Translations under genes and position numbers: made by a program
Part shown: positions 1 through 52,437 of the stretch, piece by piece
Numbering within the stretch: position 1 is the stretch's first letter
Layout of the letters: every line of letters begins with the position of its first letter
Notes under the pieces: model-generated
What the model saw: only the letters and a program-made list of their open reading frames with translations
What the model was told of the DNA's origin: nothing
Databases searched by the model: none
IMG/VR virus record: IMGVR_UViG_3300030390_000715
Coordinates: 1 to 64,000 of that record
Origin: a virus
Length of the DNA: 64,000 bases
Direction: 5' to 3' (one strand)

Positions 1-2
1 AA

Positions 3-662
3 GGCGACAAGGGTGACTCTGTTAAAGGCGACTCCATAAAGGGTGATAAAGGCGACAAGGGTGACAAAGGCGACTCTGTTAAAGGAGACAAAGGCGACTC
101 GATAAAGGGTGACAAAGGCGACAAAGGTGATACACCGGATATTGAAGCTAAGTTCGAAGAAGCCTTAGCGCAATTTAATGATAAATTGAATAGCAACCAA
201 AAGCTGGTCAAAACTAACACTGATACAATGCTCTCTAATGTTCAGAAGCAATTGTCTACTTTAGGTGGTGGTGGTTCTTACAAGATACTTGATAATGCTG
301 ATGTAGAAAAAACGAAATTAAGTTCAGTAGCCGGTGATAGTATACTGGTTTACGACCCTACAAAAAAGCTGTTTGTTGTAACTCCTTTTTTGTCAATATT
401 AGAAAGATTACGAGCGGAGTTAGAGGTGCAATACGATAAACTAATAGACGAAACTGACGCGACTGCCCATCCTCACGCACATCACCATGTTGGTTCCACG
501 TTTGTGGGTGAAGCGGCTCCCGGCTCTCTTAGAACCGCTGCGGTATGGAGAATAAAAAGAATATATGAATTGGCAGATAATCAAATCGAAATAATCTACG
601 CTAATGGTAGTGCTGATTTCGATAAAGTTTGGGATGATCGACTAACTTATACATTCGACTAA
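3..662 (+). CDS. Collagen-like tail fibre protein, 5'-truncated
   Basis: The gene enters from the left edge; the first complete codon is at 3. About 45 residues of Gly-Asp-Lys/Ser triplets (collagen-like Gly-X-Y) are followed by a short helical stretch, a Gly-rich linker, and a roughly 120-residue C-terminal part with a His-rich segment (HPHAHHH) that might bind metal. Gly-X-Y repeats in phage proteins usually form trimeric stalks, so a fibre or neck appendage is likely. It is followed by a late promoter and other tail genes. The true N-terminus and total length are outside the window. Confidence 0.7.
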   Translation, partial: GDKGDSVKGDSIKGDKGDKGDKGDSVKGDKGDSIKGDKGDKGDTPDIEAKFEEALAQFNDKLNSNQKLVKTNTDTMLSNVQKQLSTLGGGGSYKILDNADVEKTKLSSVAGDSILVYDPTKKLFVVTPFLSILERLRAELEVQYDKLIDETDATAHPHAHHHVGSTFVGEAAPGSLRTAAVWRIKRIYELADNQIEIIYANGSADFDKVWDDRLTYTFD

Positions 663-672
663 TGTTTAAACG

Positions 673-680
673 TATAAATA
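673..680 (+). promoter_or_regulatory. T4-type late promoter TATAAATA
   Basis: Exact TATAAATA, 40 bp upstream of the ATG at 721 in the short gap after the collagen-like gene. This is the T4 late -10 consensus read by gp55, which is encoded at 15457. A start about 6 nt downstream would leave a leader containing GGAG before the tail gene. Confidence 0.75.
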
Positions 681-720
681 GAATGTATACAAAAACTAAC
701 AATATTGGAGAGTTTCAACA

Positions 721-2037
721 ATGGCACTGATCACTGATCCAGATGACCTAAACCAAGGTACTGAAATTACTTTGGATACAGCCGCATTAACTTTTGAACT
801 AACGGTTACGGGCAATTTAAGCAATGATGGGGCGACCGGTCAGGCTTTATACTCGTTTCTAAAAGAAGAATGGAAAAACGATTCTTCTCTTATTCCTTAT
901 CCTTTCCCGATGGTATCGATCACACCGGAGCAGTTTGAATTTATTAAAGGATGGAAGCCAGCAAACGACACCACTCGCAACTTAATGCGATCATGTGGTT
1001 GGCGTGAGATTAACGCGGCTGGTGTTGTAAATCGTGAGTATATTGGTATTATAACACTTGGTGATATCGATAACGCAGATACAGGGTACTACGCATTCAG
1101 CTCCGACAGTGGTAAAACAGATTTCGATTTTCCTGGCGAAGTGAATCAGGGTGTTCAGACCTTCGGTGACTCAACTAATGGCAACTTTGACAAGCGTAGT
1201 AACGCATTAACTACTTTCATAAGAATTGCAGGCAAGATATATGGTTCTGCGACATCCGGAAGTATTGGTCTAACAGCACTTAACTACATTGCTAACCGAT
1301 TCCCTCTTGCTGAAAGCCTAGACGGTAAAATTACAGCGAGTGACGCGACTATCGCGTCTGCTTTACCTTATACAGGGATGAGCATTACTTACGGGGCAGT
1401 GACTCGATCTATCGGTGGAATATCAAGAAACTTTGGTGTAGTTATTGATGGTAATAACGGTACAGCCGAGCAAATCTATGAATTTGTACAGTACTCTTTA
1501 CGTCAAGCGACTGATATTGATGCTGATGGTACAGGCGTAGAAATAGGATCTCTAGCAACTAGTCTATTGAGCTTTGTTGGTGACACGTTGGTGACTCAAA
1601 ATGCATTCATCGACAACTTCCAATCTAATGATACTAACAGATTGACCTTCACCGATACTGGTGGCACAGAACGCACGTTCCCATTCGTAGCCGCAGGAAC
1701 ACTTAGTCCTAACCCCAACTTGACCGCAGATGGAAACGCGATCTATAGAGCGTTCTTTACTGCAGGCTTCGGTACAGCGGGTGCTTTGATCGTAAACGAT
1801 AACAGTGGCAATCCTATCTCCGGTACTATCAGCGGTAGTTCATCTATAGCGTTCGACTTTGATTATGATGGAAATACTCAAGGTGGTCGTACAGCGGGCA
1901 CAGACGCAGAAATAACGGTAGTAGCTATTGGATTAAACTCCGCGCAGTATGTAAGTGCGACAGCTACAATCGGTCGAGCGACTGGTCAGAACATCTCATT
2001 GGTTGCGCCTTTGGAAAGAAACTACAGCAATCCATAA
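721..2037 (+). CDS. Putative tail/adhesin structural protein
   Basis: 438 residues, preceded by TTGGAGAG at a good spacing from the ATG. It is rich in Gly, Thr, Ser, Asn and Asp with little Cys or Lys, a beta-rich composition typical of fibre or baseplate adhesins. The C-terminus ends in a short ..LER-NYSNP motif that resembles the ends of the next two proteins (QQFDR-Y-N-P/E). I do not recognise a named domain. Position between a collagen-like fibre and LamG proteins, directly behind a late promoter, supports a virion role. Confidence 0.6.
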   Translation: MALITDPDDLNQGTEITLDTAALTFELTVTGNLSNDGATGQALYSFLKEEWKNDSSLIPYPFPMVSITPEQFEFIKGWKPANDTTRNLMRSCGWREINAAGVVNREYIGIITLGDIDNADTGYYAFSSDSGKTDFDFPGEVNQGVQTFGDSTNGNFDKRSNALTTFIRIAGKIYGSATSGSIGLTALNYIANRFPLAESLDGKITASDATIASALPYTGMSITYGAVTRSIGGISRNFGVVIDGNNGTAEQIYEFVQYSLRQATDIDADGTGVEIGSLATSLLSFVGDTLVTQNAFIDNFQSNDTNRLTFTDTGGTERTFPFVAAGTLSPNPNLTADGNAIYRAFFTAGFGTAGALIVNDNSGNPISGTISGSSSIAFDFDYDGNTQGGRTAGTDAEITVVAIGLNSAQYVSATATIGRATGQNISLVAPLERNYSNP

Positions 2038-2049
2038 GGGGTATTTTGA

Positions 2050-3291
2050 GTGACATATTTGGTAAGCCTACAAGCTCTATCGCCTGACCATCTATGGGAA
2101 TTCGATGGCGACTTCGACGATACTGTCGGAGTCGCTAACGGCACCAATACTGACTTTACGTTTCTAGGACAAATTGTCGATGGTGCTAGTAGTTCCGCAG
2201 ATTGTGATGCAACTGATGCTCGTGTCACTTTAGCAAATAGAGCGACTATTACAGGAACCCTAGACCGCAAAGTAATGGGTGGTTGGGTTCGATTGGACTC
2301 TATACAACTTCCGCCAAAATCAATTTATCGTGAGGGAGAAGATAACGACCAGTTTAATTTGGTGTTATGGGCAGGCAATAACTTGCTCTTTGAAATTGTT
2401 GTGGGAGGTGTTATTTTTCAAGCATATAGCAACAATGTTCTTCTTCCTGGGCGTACTTACCATATACTCGCAAGAGTAGAAGGTAGTGCTTACGGCGATA
2501 CTTTTGCTTTATATATTGATGGAATTAAACAAGATCAAACTGAGCCAAGGTCCGGAGTATTTGGCATTGCTAGTTTAGCACAAAGATTTAATGCAGTGTG
2601 GGGAGAGCCTGCTGGTGTTACCCGAGTAGGAGACACAAACGTAGTTTTAAACGGTTGCGAAAGGTGTCGTTATTCATATTGGGCTTCTTTTAGCGGAGCT
2701 AACGCACAGCTAACAGATACAGAAATACGTGAAGTTTTATTTGAACAAGGTGCGATACCTAGTGCAACTATTACTACAGGCACACAGGCTCAAATGCAAA
2801 CACAGATAGATGCGGGAGCCAATTCATTTAGAAGTGACGCGCCTCTGAACGTCAGAGTAGAACCTGTCAGTGGAGGAGGAGATTTTACGTTGATTGCTAA
2901 CAATGTCACTCACGATCCTCTTGCTTCTATTCATATCCAATACACGGGCACAGATACGCTAAATTATATTAACGCAAATGGTTCCAACGCCAGTATCGGG
3001 TCTACCCCAAATGGTGGAACAATCAACTTTATTACTCCTTCGACTATAACTGTATCACCGTTAATTCCTGGAACAGAGGTTAGAATATATGAGTCGGGCA
3101 CTGAAACTGAGTTGGGTGGAGTCGAAAACTCAACGACGAGTTTCAGTTTATTAGTTCAAACTCCTAATGTAGATGTTGTTATACATAATGAAGAATACGT
3201 ATATGTTCGAGTTGACAATCTAGATATGACATCTGGTGACTTAGCATTACCAGTTTCACAGCAATTTGATAGAGGTTACAATAACCCATAA
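2050..3291 (+). CDS. LamG-like tail protein (shorter paralogue)
   Basis: 413 residues from a GTG start at 2050; no ATG lies nearby in frame and the reading frame is colinear with its paralogue. Residues 1-230 resemble a concanavalin/LamG jelly-roll (LSPDHLWEFDGDFDD, later ALYIDGIKQ), a glycan-binding fold common in phage adhesins. The C-terminal half has beta-rich repeats and ends QQFDRGYNNP. It aligns by eye with the last two thirds of the next protein, suggesting gene duplication. Its stop overlaps the next ATG by one base. It probably recognises surface polysaccharide. Confidence 0.6.
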   Translation: MTYLVSLQALSPDHLWEFDGDFDDTVGVANGTNTDFTFLGQIVDGASSSADCDATDARVTLANRATITGTLDRKVMGGWVRLDSIQLPPKSIYREGEDNDQFNLVLWAGNNLLFEIVVGGVIFQAYSNNVLLPGRTYHILARVEGSAYGDTFALYIDGIKQDQTEPRSGVFGIASLAQRFNAVWGEPAGVTRVGDTNVVLNGCERCRYSYWASFSGANAQLTDTEIREVLFEQGAIPSATITTGTQAQMQTQIDAGANSFRSDAPLNVRVEPVSGGGDFTLIANNVTHDPLASIHIQYTGTDTLNYINANGSNASIGSTPNGGTINFITPSTITVSPLIPGTEVRIYESGTETELGGVENSTTSFSLLVQTPNVDVVIHNEEYVYVRVDNLDMTSGDLALPVSQQFDRGYNNP

Positions 3292-5486
3292 TGGCTATTT
3301 CATTAGTCGGAACTAATATACAAGACACCGGTTCAGGTAACGCATTAACCTTTGCTGTACCTGGAGCCGCGCAAGCGGACGATCTAATATTAGTAGCCGT
3401 AAAACAATCTGATAATGGTGCCGCCGGAATATGGGACGATGACGGTGGTGGTGGACGCGGTTACACACAGCTTGCATATAATAGAAGCACCGGTGGTCGA
3501 GATCAAGAAACTGCCATTTACTTTAAGGTGCATAGCGGGTCAGAATCTAATCCGACGTTCACATGGAGATTAGGCGTTACCGGTGAACCCATGTCGGGCG
3601 CGATGCTTATCTATCGAGGCGTCGATACTTCTGACCCAATCGCAAACTTTGGATTCCTTAATGGCCAGAATAACGCGGCTCCAGCTAACCCTACTGCCAA
3701 TGTATCCGGTCCGTCACAAGTTGTTGTAGTACATGCCGCTACGCACGATGACATTGTTTCGCCACAACCGCCTACGGACTTCACGATGCGGGCTCAGGTG
3801 TGGGCAGGCACTAGCAATGATCACCGTAACCTTTTTGTTGCAGACAAATTTGTAGGTGATCTGGGCTTTTACAGTCCGGGTGCTTGGAATCATACGGTTA
3901 GTAGTACAACACCGGAATTTCATACATACACTTTAGTACTATCAGAACTACAGAGTGTAGGCTTTACTAATATTCCGAGTGGTAATGAATTCGGAACAAG
4001 TGTGACAGTAGAAGGCTTTGACTTTGGATCTGTCCAAGGATCGGGAAAAATAGAGCTATGGAGTGATGCGACCGGAACAATTAAAGTTAACCAAACTGTA
4101 ACGTCTTGGTCAGACACTTCTGTCTCTTTCCTAGCGGTACAGGGGACGCTAAGTAATAACACGACATTATACGTAGTACTAACAAACAATGCAGGTGATG
4201 AAACATTCGCCACCGCAATTATATTTGGAATTCCGTCTTACACTCAACTCGTCACGCAATTGGCGCCTGATCATTACTGGACCTTTAACAACAATTACAT
4301 CGATGTTATCAACGGCAATACTATTAACCTTAATGTCCAAGGATCAGGGAACTTCGTTACTCAACCAATTGCAGAAAACTCACCGGTCTCGTGGTTGAGC
4401 CTAGGTGGTAGACGCGGTCCCGATAACAGTAGTGTAATGAACACTGCGACTACAGTTAATGGAGTAAGGGCTGGCTGGATTCGAGTTAACACACTTCCAA
4501 AACCATTAACTTGCATTTATGAAGAAGGTGGTGGTGTAAATAACTTAGCGTTCTTTCTAGGCATGGGCAACAAGCTTATCGCCCAGTTAGCTGATACGAA
4601 TGACGATAACGTACAAGTATTTAGTGATTTTGCGCTCGTTGTTGGTCGTTCATATCATATCTTACTTAGATTTTCGTATGATGGTTCTGAACCTGTCAAT
4701 GAACTTGCACTTTATATAGATGGTATTAAACAGCAAGTGTCCGCTGGTAATCCTCTAACGGCTACGAATCTCGACGCGCACCCCGGAGCAATAACATTCG
4801 GAGGAACAGGTGGTAACCTAGAGGTCGGCGGAACCAACGTGGATTTTCTAGAGCAAGAGAACACAAACTTTTCTAATTGGGTTTCTTTTTCGACCAACAA
4901 AAGTGCGACCGAACTTTACCCTCTCTTTGCGCGAGGCGCAATTCCAGAAGTCACTTTTCCTGAGTCTACAGTGGCTTCACTACAAAGCCAGTTAGATGCA
5001 TATAGTGATCAAACTTTCCAGAACGTCGGTCCTCTTGCTTTAAGAATATCGGGTGCAACTACTATCGCTGATCTAACTCTCACTGCCAATGATATTGTTT
5101 TTGATGAAGCTATTTCGTTATTTTTAGAATGGCGAGGGCTTTCTCAATTGACCATAATTAACAAAGGCACAAGTAATTTTAGAGCGGAGAAGTGTATAGT
5201 AACAAGTACCTTAGGCTCTATCGTTATCATAGATGCACCACTTTTAACATTGACGGGCATACAAGCAGGATCAGAGGTAAGAGTATACGATAGTTCTACT
5301 AACCAAGAACTGGCGGGCTCCGAATCTGTTACAGGCACCTTTACAGCTTCATTGGAATCCACTACCGTGAATATTGTAGTTGTTAGTGTTCAATACGAAT
5401 ACCTGAGAATTGAAGATGTAGTTTTGAATCAAGATTTAACACTACCAATTCTGCAACAATTCGATAGGAATTATTCAAATGAGTGA
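3291..5486 (+). CDS. Large LamG/IPT-type tail adhesin
   Basis: 731 residues. About residues 1-220 form a beta-rich domain, followed by an IPT/TIG-like segment (near 225-340) and then a LamG-like domain beginning LAPDHYWTFNNNY with ALYIDGIKQQ, matching the preceding protein. It ends QQFDRNYSNE. Known relatives of such domains bind glycans at phage tail tips. The start overlaps the previous stop (TAATG) and the end overlaps the next gene by 8 bases, so the set is translationally coupled. A receptor-binding or tail-tip role is inferred from fold and context. Confidence 0.6.
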   Translation: MAISLVGTNIQDTGSGNALTFAVPGAAQADDLILVAVKQSDNGAAGIWDDDGGGGRGYTQLAYNRSTGGRDQETAIYFKVHSGSESNPTFTWRLGVTGEPMSGAMLIYRGVDTSDPIANFGFLNGQNNAAPANPTANVSGPSQVVVVHAATHDDIVSPQPPTDFTMRAQVWAGTSNDHRNLFVADKFVGDLGFYSPGAWNHTVSSTTPEFHTYTLVLSELQSVGFTNIPSGNEFGTSVTVEGFDFGSVQGSGKIELWSDATGTIKVNQTVTSWSDTSVSFLAVQGTLSNNTTLYVVLTNNAGDETFATAIIFGIPSYTQLVTQLAPDHYWTFNNNYIDVINGNTINLNVQGSGNFVTQPIAENSPVSWLSLGGRRGPDNSSVMNTATTVNGVRAGWIRVNTLPKPLTCIYEEGGGVNNLAFFLGMGNKLIAQLADTNDDNVQVFSDFALVVGRSYHILLRFSYDGSEPVNELALYIDGIKQQVSAGNPLTATNLDAHPGAITFGGTGGNLEVGGTNVDFLEQENTNFSNWVSFSTNKSATELYPLFARGAIPEVTFPESTVASLQSQLDAYSDQTFQNVGPLALRISGATTIADLTLTANDIVFDEAISLFLEWRGLSQLTIINKGTSNFRAEKCIVTSTLGSIVIIDAPLLTLTGIQAGSEVRVYDSSTNQELAGSESVTGTFTASLESTTVNIVVVSVQYEYLRIEDVVLNQDLTLPILQQFDRNYSNE

Positions 5487-47725: not shown

Positions 47726-47903
47726 AACTACCAAAAAAAATCCAAAGGACTTTAATGGCGGTGGTTGTCGAGAGTATTGGTCAAATAGACCACACAACAA
47801 AGGTGGAAGTGCCAGCATAGGTAAATACCAAAAGAGCAGAACCGCAAGAACGGAAAGGCGATTAGCCAAAGCAAAAACAGGAGAAAGTGATGGAACTAAT
47901 TAG
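47718..47903 (+). CDS. Small basic protein
   Basis: 61 residues from ATG 47718 (GGAG 7 bases upstream; ATG 47715 is too close). Very basic with a GGGCREYWSNRPHNKGG stretch and a Lys/Arg tail, suggestive of nucleic-acid binding. Unrecognised. Confidence 0.5.
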   Translation: MTRTTKKNPKDFNGGGCREYWSNRPHNKGGSASIGKYQKSRTARTERRLAKAKTGESDGTN

Positions 47904-48141
47904 AGACGAAGAGATACTAAAGTTTTCGAAACAGAATTTAATCTTTACAAGGGATAATTCTGGGGAACTTGAGCTGTCAAGAGTGCTATGTGATGTTGAT
48001 AATGTTGCCCTTAGTGTTGGTTATGTTGGCGGTAATGTTGGTTATGTTGGCGGTAATGTTGATAATGTTCACGGTGGTGTTCGTTATGTTGAAGGTAATG
48101 TTGGCGGAAAGACAAACAGGGAGAATTTGAAGCCAGAGTAA
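47890..48141 (+). CDS. Protein with five heptapeptide repeats
   Basis: 83 residues, GGAGAAAGTG ribosome cassette. Residues 37-71 are five heptads: DNVALSV, GYVGGNV twice, DNVHGGV, RYVEGNV. Such Gly-Asn-Val repeats are typical of small beta-solenoid segments. The encoding DNA is a 21-bp tandem repeat (47998-48102). Function unknown. Confidence 0.6.
   Translation: MELIRDEEILKFSKQNLIFTRDNSGELELSRVLCDVDNVALSVGYVGGNVGYVGGNVDNVHGGVRYVEGNVGGKTNRENLKPE
47998..48102 (+). repeat. Five 21-bp tandem repeats
   Basis: Units at 47998, 48019, 48040, 48061 and 48082; the second and third are identical (GGTTATGTTGGCGGTAATG..). In frame, so copy number can vary without frameshift. Confidence 0.9.
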
Positions 48142-48225
48142 GAAAGTTGCCCATTCCTTTCACTTTTGCTAAGACATACGAAACAGTTCTGGAGAGCTTA
48201 AACTAACTAATCTGAGGAGAGAGTG

Positions 48226-48477
48226 ATGAAGGAATATGTAATAGGAACAGCAGTTTTTATAGTCAAAAGAGGGTCAATGACTTGTCGTGCGCTTGATCCA
48301 GTTGCGTATTTTTCAAGACGTAGCAAAGCCGAGGCTTTTATCGCTAAAGATCGGAAATTCTATAATGGCGATTTGGGGGTTTCTGCCAAAGATTATGTGT
48401 ATCAAATAGAAATCATTCCACTAGACAATACATATTCGGAGATATCAGCGTCGCAGATACCTTATAGGAGAAAGTGA
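48226..48477 (+). CDS. Small hypothetical
   Basis: 83 residues from ATG 48226, with GAGGAGAGAGTG upstream. TAVFIVKRGSMTCRALDPVA then FSRRSKAEAFIAKDRKFYN and a beta strand YVYQIEIIPL. Unrecognised. Followed by another AGGAGAAAGTG cassette. Confidence 0.55.
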   Translation: MKEYVIGTAVFIVKRGSMTCRALDPVAYFSRRSKAEAFIAKDRKFYNGDLGVSAKDYVYQIEIIPLDNTYSEISASQIPYRRK

Positions 48478-48479
48478 AG

Positions 48480-48644
48480 ATGACAAATGAAAATAATGAA
48501 ACAAATGCAACTGAATTTGATAACTGCACATTTACTGGCGTAGAAATTGAATTAAGGTGTCTTAAAACAGCCCTTGAAAATATGTTAGTAGCGGTGAAGA
48601 AGATTTCGACCTTTAATAATAACGAAGATGATAGATGGCGATGA
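48480..48644 (+). CDS. Small hypothetical
   Basis: 54 residues; ribosome site AGGAGAAAGTGAAG. Asn/Thr/Glu-rich start, then a helix GVEIELRCLKTALENMLVAV (20). Unrecognised. Confidence 0.5.
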   Translation: MTNENNETNATEFDNCTFTGVEIELRCLKTALENMLVAVKKISTFNNNEDDRWR

Positions 48645-48667
48645 CGCCCGAAAAACAGGAGAAAGTG

Positions 48668-49036
48668 ATGCGAGACATTAAATTTAGGCAGTGGGATAAA
48701 AGAAATAAACGGTTTCATTATTTTGGGTTTACTTTAGACGATTACTTCGAATTTACCTCGCCAGTAAGCCCCTGTAGGAAAAATTACCCAGTATCACAAT
48801 ACACTGGCTTAAAGGACTCAAAAGGCGTTGAGATTTATGAGGGTGATGTTGTCAACTCAAGACATCTTTCTCTGGCTGAGGTGGTTTTCTCAAAGAAAGC
48901 CGCGAAATTTTGCATACAAATCTATCGAATGAATCCTTACAAAGAAATGACTAAGCGAGTTTATAGTATTTTGTCGTGCGAAGTTGTAGGCAACATCTAC
49001 GAAAACCCTGAGCTATTAGGAGAAAGTAATGAATAA
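48668..49036 (+). CDS. YopX-family protein 1
   Basis: 122 residues from ATG 48668 (AGGAGAAAGTG). MRDIKFRQWDKRNKRFHYFG, VSQYTGLKDSKGVEIYEGDV and the end VVGNIYENPELL are the complete YopX pattern, a small phage protein of unknown function. The last codons already contain the AGGAGAAAGTAATG start signal of the next gene. Confidence 0.85.
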   Translation: MRDIKFRQWDKRNKRFHYFGFTLDDYFEFTSPVSPCRKNYPVSQYTGLKDSKGVEIYEGDVVNSRHLSLAEVVFSKKAAKFCIQIYRMNPYKEMTKRVYSILSCEVVGNIYENPELLGESNE

Positions 49037-49229
49037 GGCCATATTGGAGCCAAATGTGGAGCGTACTCCAAGCGATCTCGAACTGCTTAGGCAAGGAAAA
49101 ATTAGAGCAGTCGGAAAAGTCAGGGCCAGAAAATTAAAGCGCAAAGGAGTTTCATGTTGGTGGTCACCTGAATTAAATAGCCGAGTAAGGGCAGGATTAA
49201 TTAAAGGAGAAAGTGATGCGAGAAATTAA
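49029..49229 (+). CDS. Small basic hypothetical
   Basis: 66 residues, Arg/Lys-rich (GKIRAVGKVRARKLKRKGVS, 20), with a WWSPEL motif. It overlaps both YopX genes. The ribosome site lies in the YopX 1 tail. Likely nucleic-acid binding by composition only. Confidence 0.5.
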   Translation: MNKAILEPNVERTPSDLELLRQGKIRAVGKVRARKLKRKGVSCWWSPELNSRVRAGLIKGESDARN

Positions 49230-49566
49230 ATTTAGAGCGTGGCATAGAGGTGCTGAGGAATTTTGTGAGGGCTTAACATCTAATATGTTTCAGTGGAGAG
49301 AAGATGGGCAACCCATAACACTTATGCAATACACCGGACTCAAAGATGCTAATGGTGTTGAGATGTACGAGGGTGATGTTCTTACTGCACAGAAAGGCTC
49401 TTACTCTGGGAAGTCCCTACCTATCAAGGGGGCATTAGAAGTCCACGGAATACATTGGTTTATTAACACAGGTGATATCCTAACGTATCTAGGGGGCGTC
49501 AGAAACATAAAAGTAATTGGCAACATATACGAAAACCCAGAACTAATCCGAGGAGATACAAAATGA
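49216..49566 (+). CDS. YopX-family protein 2
   Basis: 116 residues from ATG 49216. MREIKFRAWHRGAEEFCEG, LMQYTGLKDANGVEMYEGDV and KVIGNIYENPELIRG match YopX 1, with a different middle. The pair are paralogues flanking a small gene. Their conserved ends and shared ribosome cassette look like recombination joints. Confidence 0.85.
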   Translation: MREIKFRAWHRGAEEFCEGLTSNMFQWREDGQPITLMQYTGLKDANGVEMYEGDVLTAQKGSYSGKSLPIKGALEVHGIHWFINTGDILTYLGGVRNIKVIGNIYENPELIRGDTK

Positions 49567-49844
49567 TTGAACTAGAACAGATTGCAAAACAAGCCAAATC
49601 GTCAATAGTTGCCGCTGAAAAGCTTAGTGCATTGGACGATCTTCGTGTCGAGTACCTTGGTAAGAAAGGTAGGCTAACAGGCCTTCTTAAAGGTCTAGGC
49701 AGATTGTCGGCTGAAGAACGCCCGGCAGAGGGCGCTAAAATAAATGATGTCAAACAAAGCCTACAAGAGCTTATTGGGCAGCGAAAAGCTTATCTTGAGA
49801 GTATCGACCTGGATGCCACTTATACGCAAACCCAGAACTATTAG
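49563..49844 (+). CDS. Stand-alone PheS N-terminal domain
   Basis: 93 residues. Residues 5-85 match the N-terminal coiled-coil, tRNA-binding arm of bacterial phenylalanyl-tRNA synthetase alpha (PheS, normally about 330 residues): LDDLRVEYLGKKGRLTGLLK (20) and LSAEERPAEGAKINDVKQ have close counterparts in E. coli PheS (NVRVEYLGKKGHLT, PPEERPAAGAVINEAK). The catalytic domain is absent. The last codons (TYTQTQNY) derive from DNA resembling a YopX tail. Probably captured host DNA now expressed as a phage gene. Confidence 0.85.
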   Translation: MIELEQIAKQAKSSIVAAEKLSALDDLRVEYLGKKGRLTGLLKGLGRLSAEERPAEGAKINDVKQSLQELIGQRKAYLESIDLDATYTQTQNY

Positions 49845-49853
49845 GAGAAAGTG

Positions 49854-50057
49854 ATGGAAAACCTACGTTTAACTTATATTAATTTTTACACTTACAAAGG
49901 GTGGACTTTTGAATGGAAAAAAGACTGGCCTGTTGGCCCTTGGCCTTGTAAAAAAGACTTGGAGTTAAGGGCAAAAGCAGGTAGAAAATTCTGGGATATG
50001 TTTCAAGAATTCTCCGAATTAAGCGACGAGGAACAAGAACAGTACAGGGTTTTTTAA
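49854..50057 (+). CDS. Small aromatic-rich hypothetical
   Basis: 67 residues from ATG 49854 (AGGAGAAAGTG). Trp/Tyr/Phe-rich start (YINFYTYKGWTFEWKKDWP), PVGPWPC, then an acidic helical end. Unrecognised. Last member of the AGGAGAAAGTG series. Confidence 0.5.
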   Translation: MENLRLTYINFYTYKGWTFEWKKDWPVGPWPCKKDLELRAKAGRKFWDMFQEFSELSDEEQEQYRVF

Positions 50058-50190: not shown

Positions 50191-50460
50191 ATGAATACTG
50201 CAAAAGACTTTGAAGTACTAATTACGTATAAGAGCGGACACAGTGAGATAGCTATAATTCCACTGACCCAGTACTGCTCGGAAATAGAAACACTACAGGG
50301 CAAACTGATGAAATACTGCATAAACACGAAAGACTATGAAGTACTAATTACGTATAAGAGTGGACACCGTGAGATAGCTATAATTCCACTGACCCAGTAC
50401 TCCTCAGAAATAGAAACACTACAGTCAGAAGGTCGGCTCGTAAGTATGGAGATTTTATAA
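50191..50460 (+). CDS. Internally duplicated hypothetical protein
   Basis: 89 residues made of two nearly identical 42-residue halves: FEVLITYKSGHSEIAIIPLT / YEVLITYKSGHREIAIIPLT, then QY-SEIETLQ. The DNA repeat has a 126-bp period and few changes, so the duplication is recent. Each half looks like a small alpha/beta unit. Unrecognised. Confidence 0.65.
   Translation: MNTAKDFEVLITYKSGHSEIAIIPLTQYCSEIETLQGKLMKYCINTKDYEVLITYKSGHREIAIIPLTQYSSEIETLQSEGRLVSMEIL
50203..50424 (+). repeat. 126-bp direct duplication
   Basis: Aligned blocks such as TGAAGTACTAATTACGTATA occur at 50211 and 50337; about 95 bp of each unit are nearly identical. Confidence 0.9.
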
Positions 50461-52056: not shown

Positions 52057-52437
52057 ATGAAGTACCAATCTCATAGTGAAATACCAATCCAGTACCGCAA
52101 AATAATTCTTAGTGCAGTTTCCGAGAAACGCGTCAATAAAGTTGATATTATAAAATGTAATGATATCATCGAAGAGCATGATCGACACGAAGCGCAAATG
52201 GCACCACTTCGAAAGTTTCAGATTACCTATCAGAAAGGAAAGACTCGAAAGGTCTATGATTACAATAACGCTTCTGATGCTCTAACGACCCTTGACCAGT
52301 TAATTGGATTTGATGAACGCGATCCTGACGTTCTAGCTGTAGTGAAACAAGGTGATAGAATAGTACGTGGTTACTTTAAAGGCGAGTGGTATATTCCTGA
52401 GCCGCGTGATGCAATTAAATATGTTAATAGGGTGTAA
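52057..52437 (+). CDS. Hypothetical protein
   Basis: 126 residues starting one base after the previous stop; AAGGAGTC gives a good ribosome site. A helical first half and a second half KFQITYQKGKTRKVYDYNNA resembling a small beta domain. Unrecognised. Confidence 0.55.
   Translation: MKYQSHSEIPIQYRKIILSAVSEKRVNKVDIIKCNDIIEEHDRHEAQMAPLRKFQITYQKGKTRKVYDYNNASDALTTLDQLIGFDERDPDVLAVVKQGDRIVRGYFKGEWYIPEPRDAIKYVNRV

Follow-up and report, generated by a model that had tools for sequence, protein, structure and literature searches.

Why should a T4-like phage carry the N-terminal, coiled-coil arm of a bacterial PheS as a gene of its own, and where did this arm come from? The question is raised by a 93-codon open reading frame (ORF) at 49563..49844 (+ strand) of the 64,000-nucleotide stretch analysed here (the window), which comprises positions 1 to 64,000 of the IMG/VR virus record IMGVR_UViG_3300030390_000715. 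What emerges is a clear gene capture and a strong clue to the host of the phage, in which the captured piece itself may be a mere passenger.

A free-standing PheS arm in a T4-like phage

The complete record of 152,753 bp represents a T4-like phage by its major capsid protein, the nearest relatives of which are found in the Kyanoviridae record Phage C48C1 and in Methylophilales and Pelagibacter phages, and its genes for the capsid and for replication are T4-type. ARAGORN detected no tRNA genes, and a search of the 152,753-bp record for integrases of the tyrosine family (PF00589) found none. Megablast of the 40-60 kb portion of the window against phages returned no match, and for the protein encoded at 52057 no related loci were found. 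Both ends of the record (1-60 and 152694-152753) consist of similar GDKGD-type, collagen-like repeats, so that the genome is probably circularly permuted, with the contig broken within a single repetitive gene.

PF02912 (Phe_tRNA-synt_N) occurs once in the complete 152,753-bp record and is the sole Pfam domain of the ORF (E 4.3e-23, residues 20-85), with a score of 81.5 bits against a gathering cut-off of 22.3, which places the protein within this domain family. Searched against the PDB, it matched bacterial PheS chains (best E 1.8e-16) with identical residue numbers from 3 to 86. An earlier note, made from the letters of this DNA alone, had claimed a PheS N-terminal signature in a gene ending at 93 codons and had proposed a profile search as a check; both the signature and the gene end are borne out. 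An AlphaFold2 model built with 32 aligned sequences is all helical (mean pLDDT 83), and the top 18 PDB matches retrieved with it by Foldseek are PheRS entries (query TM 0.64-0.92), the best four PheS chains reaching 0.81-0.92; the predicted structure adopts the helical arm fold as in solved PheS chains. Thus, the protein resembles the arm of bacterial PheS in sequence, predicted fold, and residue numbering, and shares ~90% identity with the PheS of the metagenome-assembled genome (MAG) UBA1117. In contrast to that arm, it stands alone with 93 residues, lacks the class II catalytic module according to Pfam, ending before any catalytic domain would begin, and closes with eight foreign residues, TYTQTQNY. 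The frame has no internal stops, and Pfam assigned no YopX (PF09643) match to the ORF itself, the YopX remnant described below being 3' DNA read in another frame. Furthermore, PHROG 19793 (339 positions, function unknown) matches the arm over positions 4-87; this family probably consists of full-length PheS that derives from records of phages or of prophage flanks.

The earlier note knew of no described stand-alone PheS arm in phages, and our searches agree. Arm matches were recovered from 3 of 50,697 phage records, namely Pseudomonas phage SC_8_H2H8_2017 and two Listeria records, and each was part of a full-length PheS match. The Pseudomonas phage gene was rejected as a captured arm, since it sits between IF-3 and a pheT-like ORF and therefore belongs to host flank. 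Positions 1-5421 of that record (MT121966.1, L162) start with IF-3 and hold ribosomal-protein-like ORFs, the full-length pheS, and pheT-like ORFs; this start is probably host flank, mostly unannotated, on a prophage-like record. A full-length pheS in related phages, which would have marked the fragment as a decaying remnant, was not encountered either: PF02912 is missing from 27 viral contigs whose relationship rests on the major capsid protein, and from five that share the cassette discussed below, both sets consisting mostly of fragments with no syntenic empty site. Pattern scans of viral contigs, which reach mainly near relatives, likewise yielded no relative of the arm, and a phage-encoded stand-alone PheS arm is absent from the literature searched, the coverage of which is incomplete.

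Donor and joins of the captured DNA

The captured DNA (49562..49818, + strand) aligns ungapped with pheS of the Porticoccaceae MAG UBA1117 at 247 of 257 bases (96.1% identity, 10 differences), beginning with the AATG that contains the start codon and ending at the first base of codon 86, whereas the next-nearest relatives share 82%. In UBA1117, a full-length pheS encoding 337 amino acids begins with the counterpart of this piece. In a scan of prokaryote genomes, the best PheS was again that of UBA1117, followed by SAR92/HTCC2207-like MAGs, and at the amino acid level the arm is ~90% identical to UBA1117 PheS over residues 1-88, as against 72% for the next of the 61 family genomes searched. A DNA tree groups the phage fragment with UBA1117 (support 92/82). 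The earlier note had proposed a tree with PheS of marine Gammaproteobacteria, and a close match to one host genus was there expected to name the host as well; the outcome is positive, the closest match being one host lineage, SAR92/Porticoccaceae, at 96% DNA identity. Judged by these alignments, the donor was a Porticoccaceae bacterium of the SAR92 clade and a close relative of UBA1117. The host of the phage is probably of the same SAR92/Porticoccaceae type, now or recently, as far as one gene indicates. A 20-kb query around the fragment gave no further match in the UBA1117 genome, which argues for a small fragment rather than host contamination.

Both ends of the piece are sharp (AATG and GATGCCA), with few bases common to the two sides. 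At the left junction (49550..49566, + strand), GAGGAGATACAAAATGA, containing the phage ribosome-binding site and the start codon, stands where the host leader aaagtgatcaataATG was, and the TGA stop of the preceding YopX-like gene 2 overlaps the ATG; the host sequence upstream of pheS (aaagtgatcaata) was not carried into the phage. At the right junction (49814..49843, + strand), where short shared bases surround GATGCCA, host identity stops at this motif, and CTTATACGCAAACCCAGAACTATTAGGAGAAAGTGATG comes next. In the YopX frame the latter translates as LYANPELLGESD, the kind of end typical of YopX (compare NIYENPELLGESN of gene 1); the whole tail reads HLYANPELLGESDG in this frame, compared with (G)NIYENPELLGESN, its own-frame reading being YANPELLGESD, whereas the PheS frame runs through it as TYTQTQNY and then meets a stop. 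Among ungapped matches to the 26 bases 49818-49843 on both strands of the window, the best are the ends of the two YopX genes (22/26 and 21/26), the next-best reaching 18/26. The likeness of this 3' DNA to the end of YopX 1 in another frame, pointed out in the earlier note, is therefore real.

Host DNA that is near-identical, breaks off sharply, and joins with little homology is what illegitimate recombination would be expected to leave. The 96.1% identity to UBA1117, the out-of-frame YopX tail, and the phage ribosome-binding site strongly support the proposal of the earlier note that the body of a third YopX-like gene gave way to host pheS DNA, an event which by its sequence traces would be very recent. 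Its further claim that the phage ribosome cassette was kept holds for the cassette of the downstream gene, but not for the PheS ORF, which starts from GAGGAGATACAAAATGA and not from GGAGAAAGTGATG.

The mosaic block and its start cassette

The fragment lies in a block of small genes (47880..50057, + strand), most of which begin at (A)GGAGAAAGTGATG, the start cassette common to them being AGGAGAAAGTGATG. YopX-like gene 1 (48668..49036, + strand; PF09643, E 5.7e-19) carries this cassette at 48658, and we place its start at the cassette ATG at 48668, the mechanical ORF being 48635-49036. It is followed by YopX-like gene 2 (49216..49566, + strand; PF09643, E 1.1e-19), the stop of which overlaps the start of the PheS fragment, and behind the fragment the cassette repeats at 49844..49856 (+ strand) to open the next gene (49854-50057). 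Exact copies of GGAGAAAGTGATG occur at four window positions (47880, 48658, 49206, and 49844); with up to two mismatches there are nine sites compared with 2.2 expected, a number reached in 0 of 100 shuffles. Further (A)GGAGAAAGTGATG cassettes lie elsewhere in the record, at 90,100 and 90,551.

Pieces of the block recur in other viral contigs in different company. In contig L278, the gene that follows the PheS fragment (89% DNA identity) stands directly behind the tail 47841-47895 (98%), the two being joined at AGGAGAAAGTGATGGA, that is, differently from the phage block and exactly at the start cassette, and contigs L279 and L280 hold YopX pieces matching the block at ~80-97%. These arrangements argue that the block is a mosaic, the pieces of which appear to have been swapped at the common start sequence. 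Scanning viral contigs with the 17-base cassette returned 61 stretches; several copies were present in L278 only, and besides L278 one hit aligned with the cassette block (L340, 44 bases), so that most of the single hits may be chance. The cassette occurred in none of the 112 Porticoccaceae-type family genomes scanned and was consequently rejected as independent evidence for the host, to which it lends no support by itself.

Three local features were also observed. The relative of the post-fragment gene in L278 (1859-2061) has one A fewer in an A-run, causing a frameshift attributable to gene decay or to a sequencing error. The small ORF 47890-48138 contains 21-base repeats encoding 7-residue, VGYVGGN-like repeats, and a tandem duplication at 50203-50424, within one small ORF, comprises two 96-base copies, 95% identical and 126 bases apart.

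Passenger or phage factor

We favour, with a probability of roughly 0.6, a recent illegitimate capture that travels as a near-neutral passenger in a phage whose host is, or recently was, of the SAR92 type. A pheS fragment of a UBA1117-like SAR92-clade bacterium would have entered the T4-like phage and displaced the YopX-like body, the left join falling at the phage start codon and the right one at codon 86 with few bases in common. Illegitimate or microhomology recombination probably made these joins, in a block habitually reshuffled at its repeated ribosome-binding and start sequence. The ORF would then be translated via the phage ribosome-binding site, its start overlapping the YopX 2 stop, and the predicted product would be a soluble helical hairpin, the tRNA-contacting arm of PheS freed of its catalytic body, which selection may so far have neither kept nor purged.

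The substitutions accumulated by the copy bear on this last point. With other SAR92 sequences as outgroup, six of the 10 differences from UBA1117 fall on the UBA1117 branch and three are phage-specific, one silent change being unassignable. The three phage-branch changes (E12K, A56E, and F78L) all alter the amino acid, whereas two independent host pairs differ over the same stretch by 8 amino-acid-changing and 47 silent substitutions; the ratio of 3:0 or 3:1 on the phage branch thus departs from the host 8:47 (Fisher p 0.005 or 0.018, on very few events). The neutral expectation is 75% amino-acid-changing substitutions, with which the phage branch agrees. Since the UBA1117 branch itself shows three amino-acid-changing and three silent changes, the contrast rests on very few events. 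With such tiny numbers, the pattern looks as expected under little purifying selection, and adaptive change would look alike, so that the substitutions are no proof of retention for a function. Two of the three changed residues, K12 and L78, occur commonly in other bacterial PheS, and folding may therefore still be under constraint. An intact ORF was discarded as a sign of function, because four random changes leave no stop with a probability of ~0.83, and the occurrence of all three changes at residues seen in other PheS is uninformative, as 52% of random amino acid changes do likewise.

A further point speaks against a mere passenger: the fragment begins exactly at the start codon and ends approximately where PF02912 ends (residue 85). 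Ends that match a domain look more like function than randomness, the right end having a chance of ~7 in 339 as judged post hoc. A functional arm, which we regard as unlikely, would bind tRNA-Phe or dock at the site of the PheS arm and compete with host PheRS in a dominant-negative manner, whereby tRNA-Phe charging might be lowered or redirected, or tRNA-Phe shielded during infection. Besides the domain-matching ends, the retention of the whole predicted fold and a good ribosome-binding site would suit this, and the faster amino acid change could be adaptive, but the substitution pattern fits neutrality equally, and the arm is absent from every other phage examined. From the structure of PheRS it is established that the arm touches tRNA and does not join the subunits; alone it supplies only part of the tRNA contacts, and a free arm would lack most of them. 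Binding of tRNA-Phe or competition with PheS assembly, as put forward in the earlier note, has no direct support. It is doubtful, too, that an arm cut at exact domain boundaries and placed behind a phage ribosome-binding site interferes with tRNA-Phe or PheRS in a dominant-negative way or as a decoy, with the cassette as a general docking point that captures genes in frame.

A decoy or substitute for the host arm, by which a host factor or a defence protein specific for the N-terminus of PheS would be titrated in a host-phage conflict, seems quite improbable. The host-identical surface is kept (~90% amino acid identity), and small genes of phages often encode anti-host factors when they lie in blocks of this kind, but the literature searched yielded no PheS-recognising factor, and we know of none acting on its N-terminus. 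Host reads stitched into a phage contig are more improbable still: the source is an IMG/VR virus record, but the two junctions lie within 0.3 kb, one at the phage ribosome-binding site and the other returning to phage DNA at an out-of-frame YopX remnant, and the piece differs at 10 positions from the only near-identical host. An attachment-site-like fragment, by which a temperate phage integrating in pheS would restore the pheS start, could explain why the piece derives from the 5' part of a conserved host gene but is largely contradicted by the T4-type capsid and replication genes, the lack of tyrosine integrases (PF00589) in the record, and a length of 257 bases, long for an attachment core.

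The favoured passenger capture has several relatives among known systems. Mycobacteriophage Giles, for instance, has reportedly gained host DNA by illegitimate recombination. This acquisition (Morris et al. 2008) is cited in PMC8136500. In both cases a mosaic phage recently took up a piece of host chromosome without targeting; unlike in Giles, the pheS piece is one whole domain, placed behind a phage ribosome-binding site and in frame from the start codon onwards, in a T4-like phage with probable SAR92 hosts. Lambdoid phages exchange modules mosaically at short conserved boundary sequences, and here a short common sequence likewise joins unrelated modules at gene boundaries, but the boundary is one ribosome-binding and start cassette common to the T4-like phage, L278, L279, and L280. 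Trbp111 is a free-standing tRNA-binding domain related to synthetase parts; the phage arm would be a similarly lone synthetase-type domain, its tRNA binding being putative, although it has a different fold and a very recent origin. T4 makes a factor acting on the host valyl-tRNA synthetase; if a function is assumed for the arm, it would likewise be a phage product directed against a synthetase of the host, except that it is itself a copied piece of such an enzyme. Thus, while the process of capture is known, we know of no earlier case in which one synthetase domain was placed in frame at the start of a phage gene.

The locus presents the birth of a phage gene caught in the act, in which the donor gene, its lineage, both joins, and the replaced gene are all readable, and it ties a large T4-like phage, probably through its host, to the abundant marine SAR92 clade without culture. 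It also makes the recruitment of single synthetase domains as phage inhibitors testable. Finally, the common start cassette suggests a route by which unrelated phages may shuffle small genes while leaving their translation intact.
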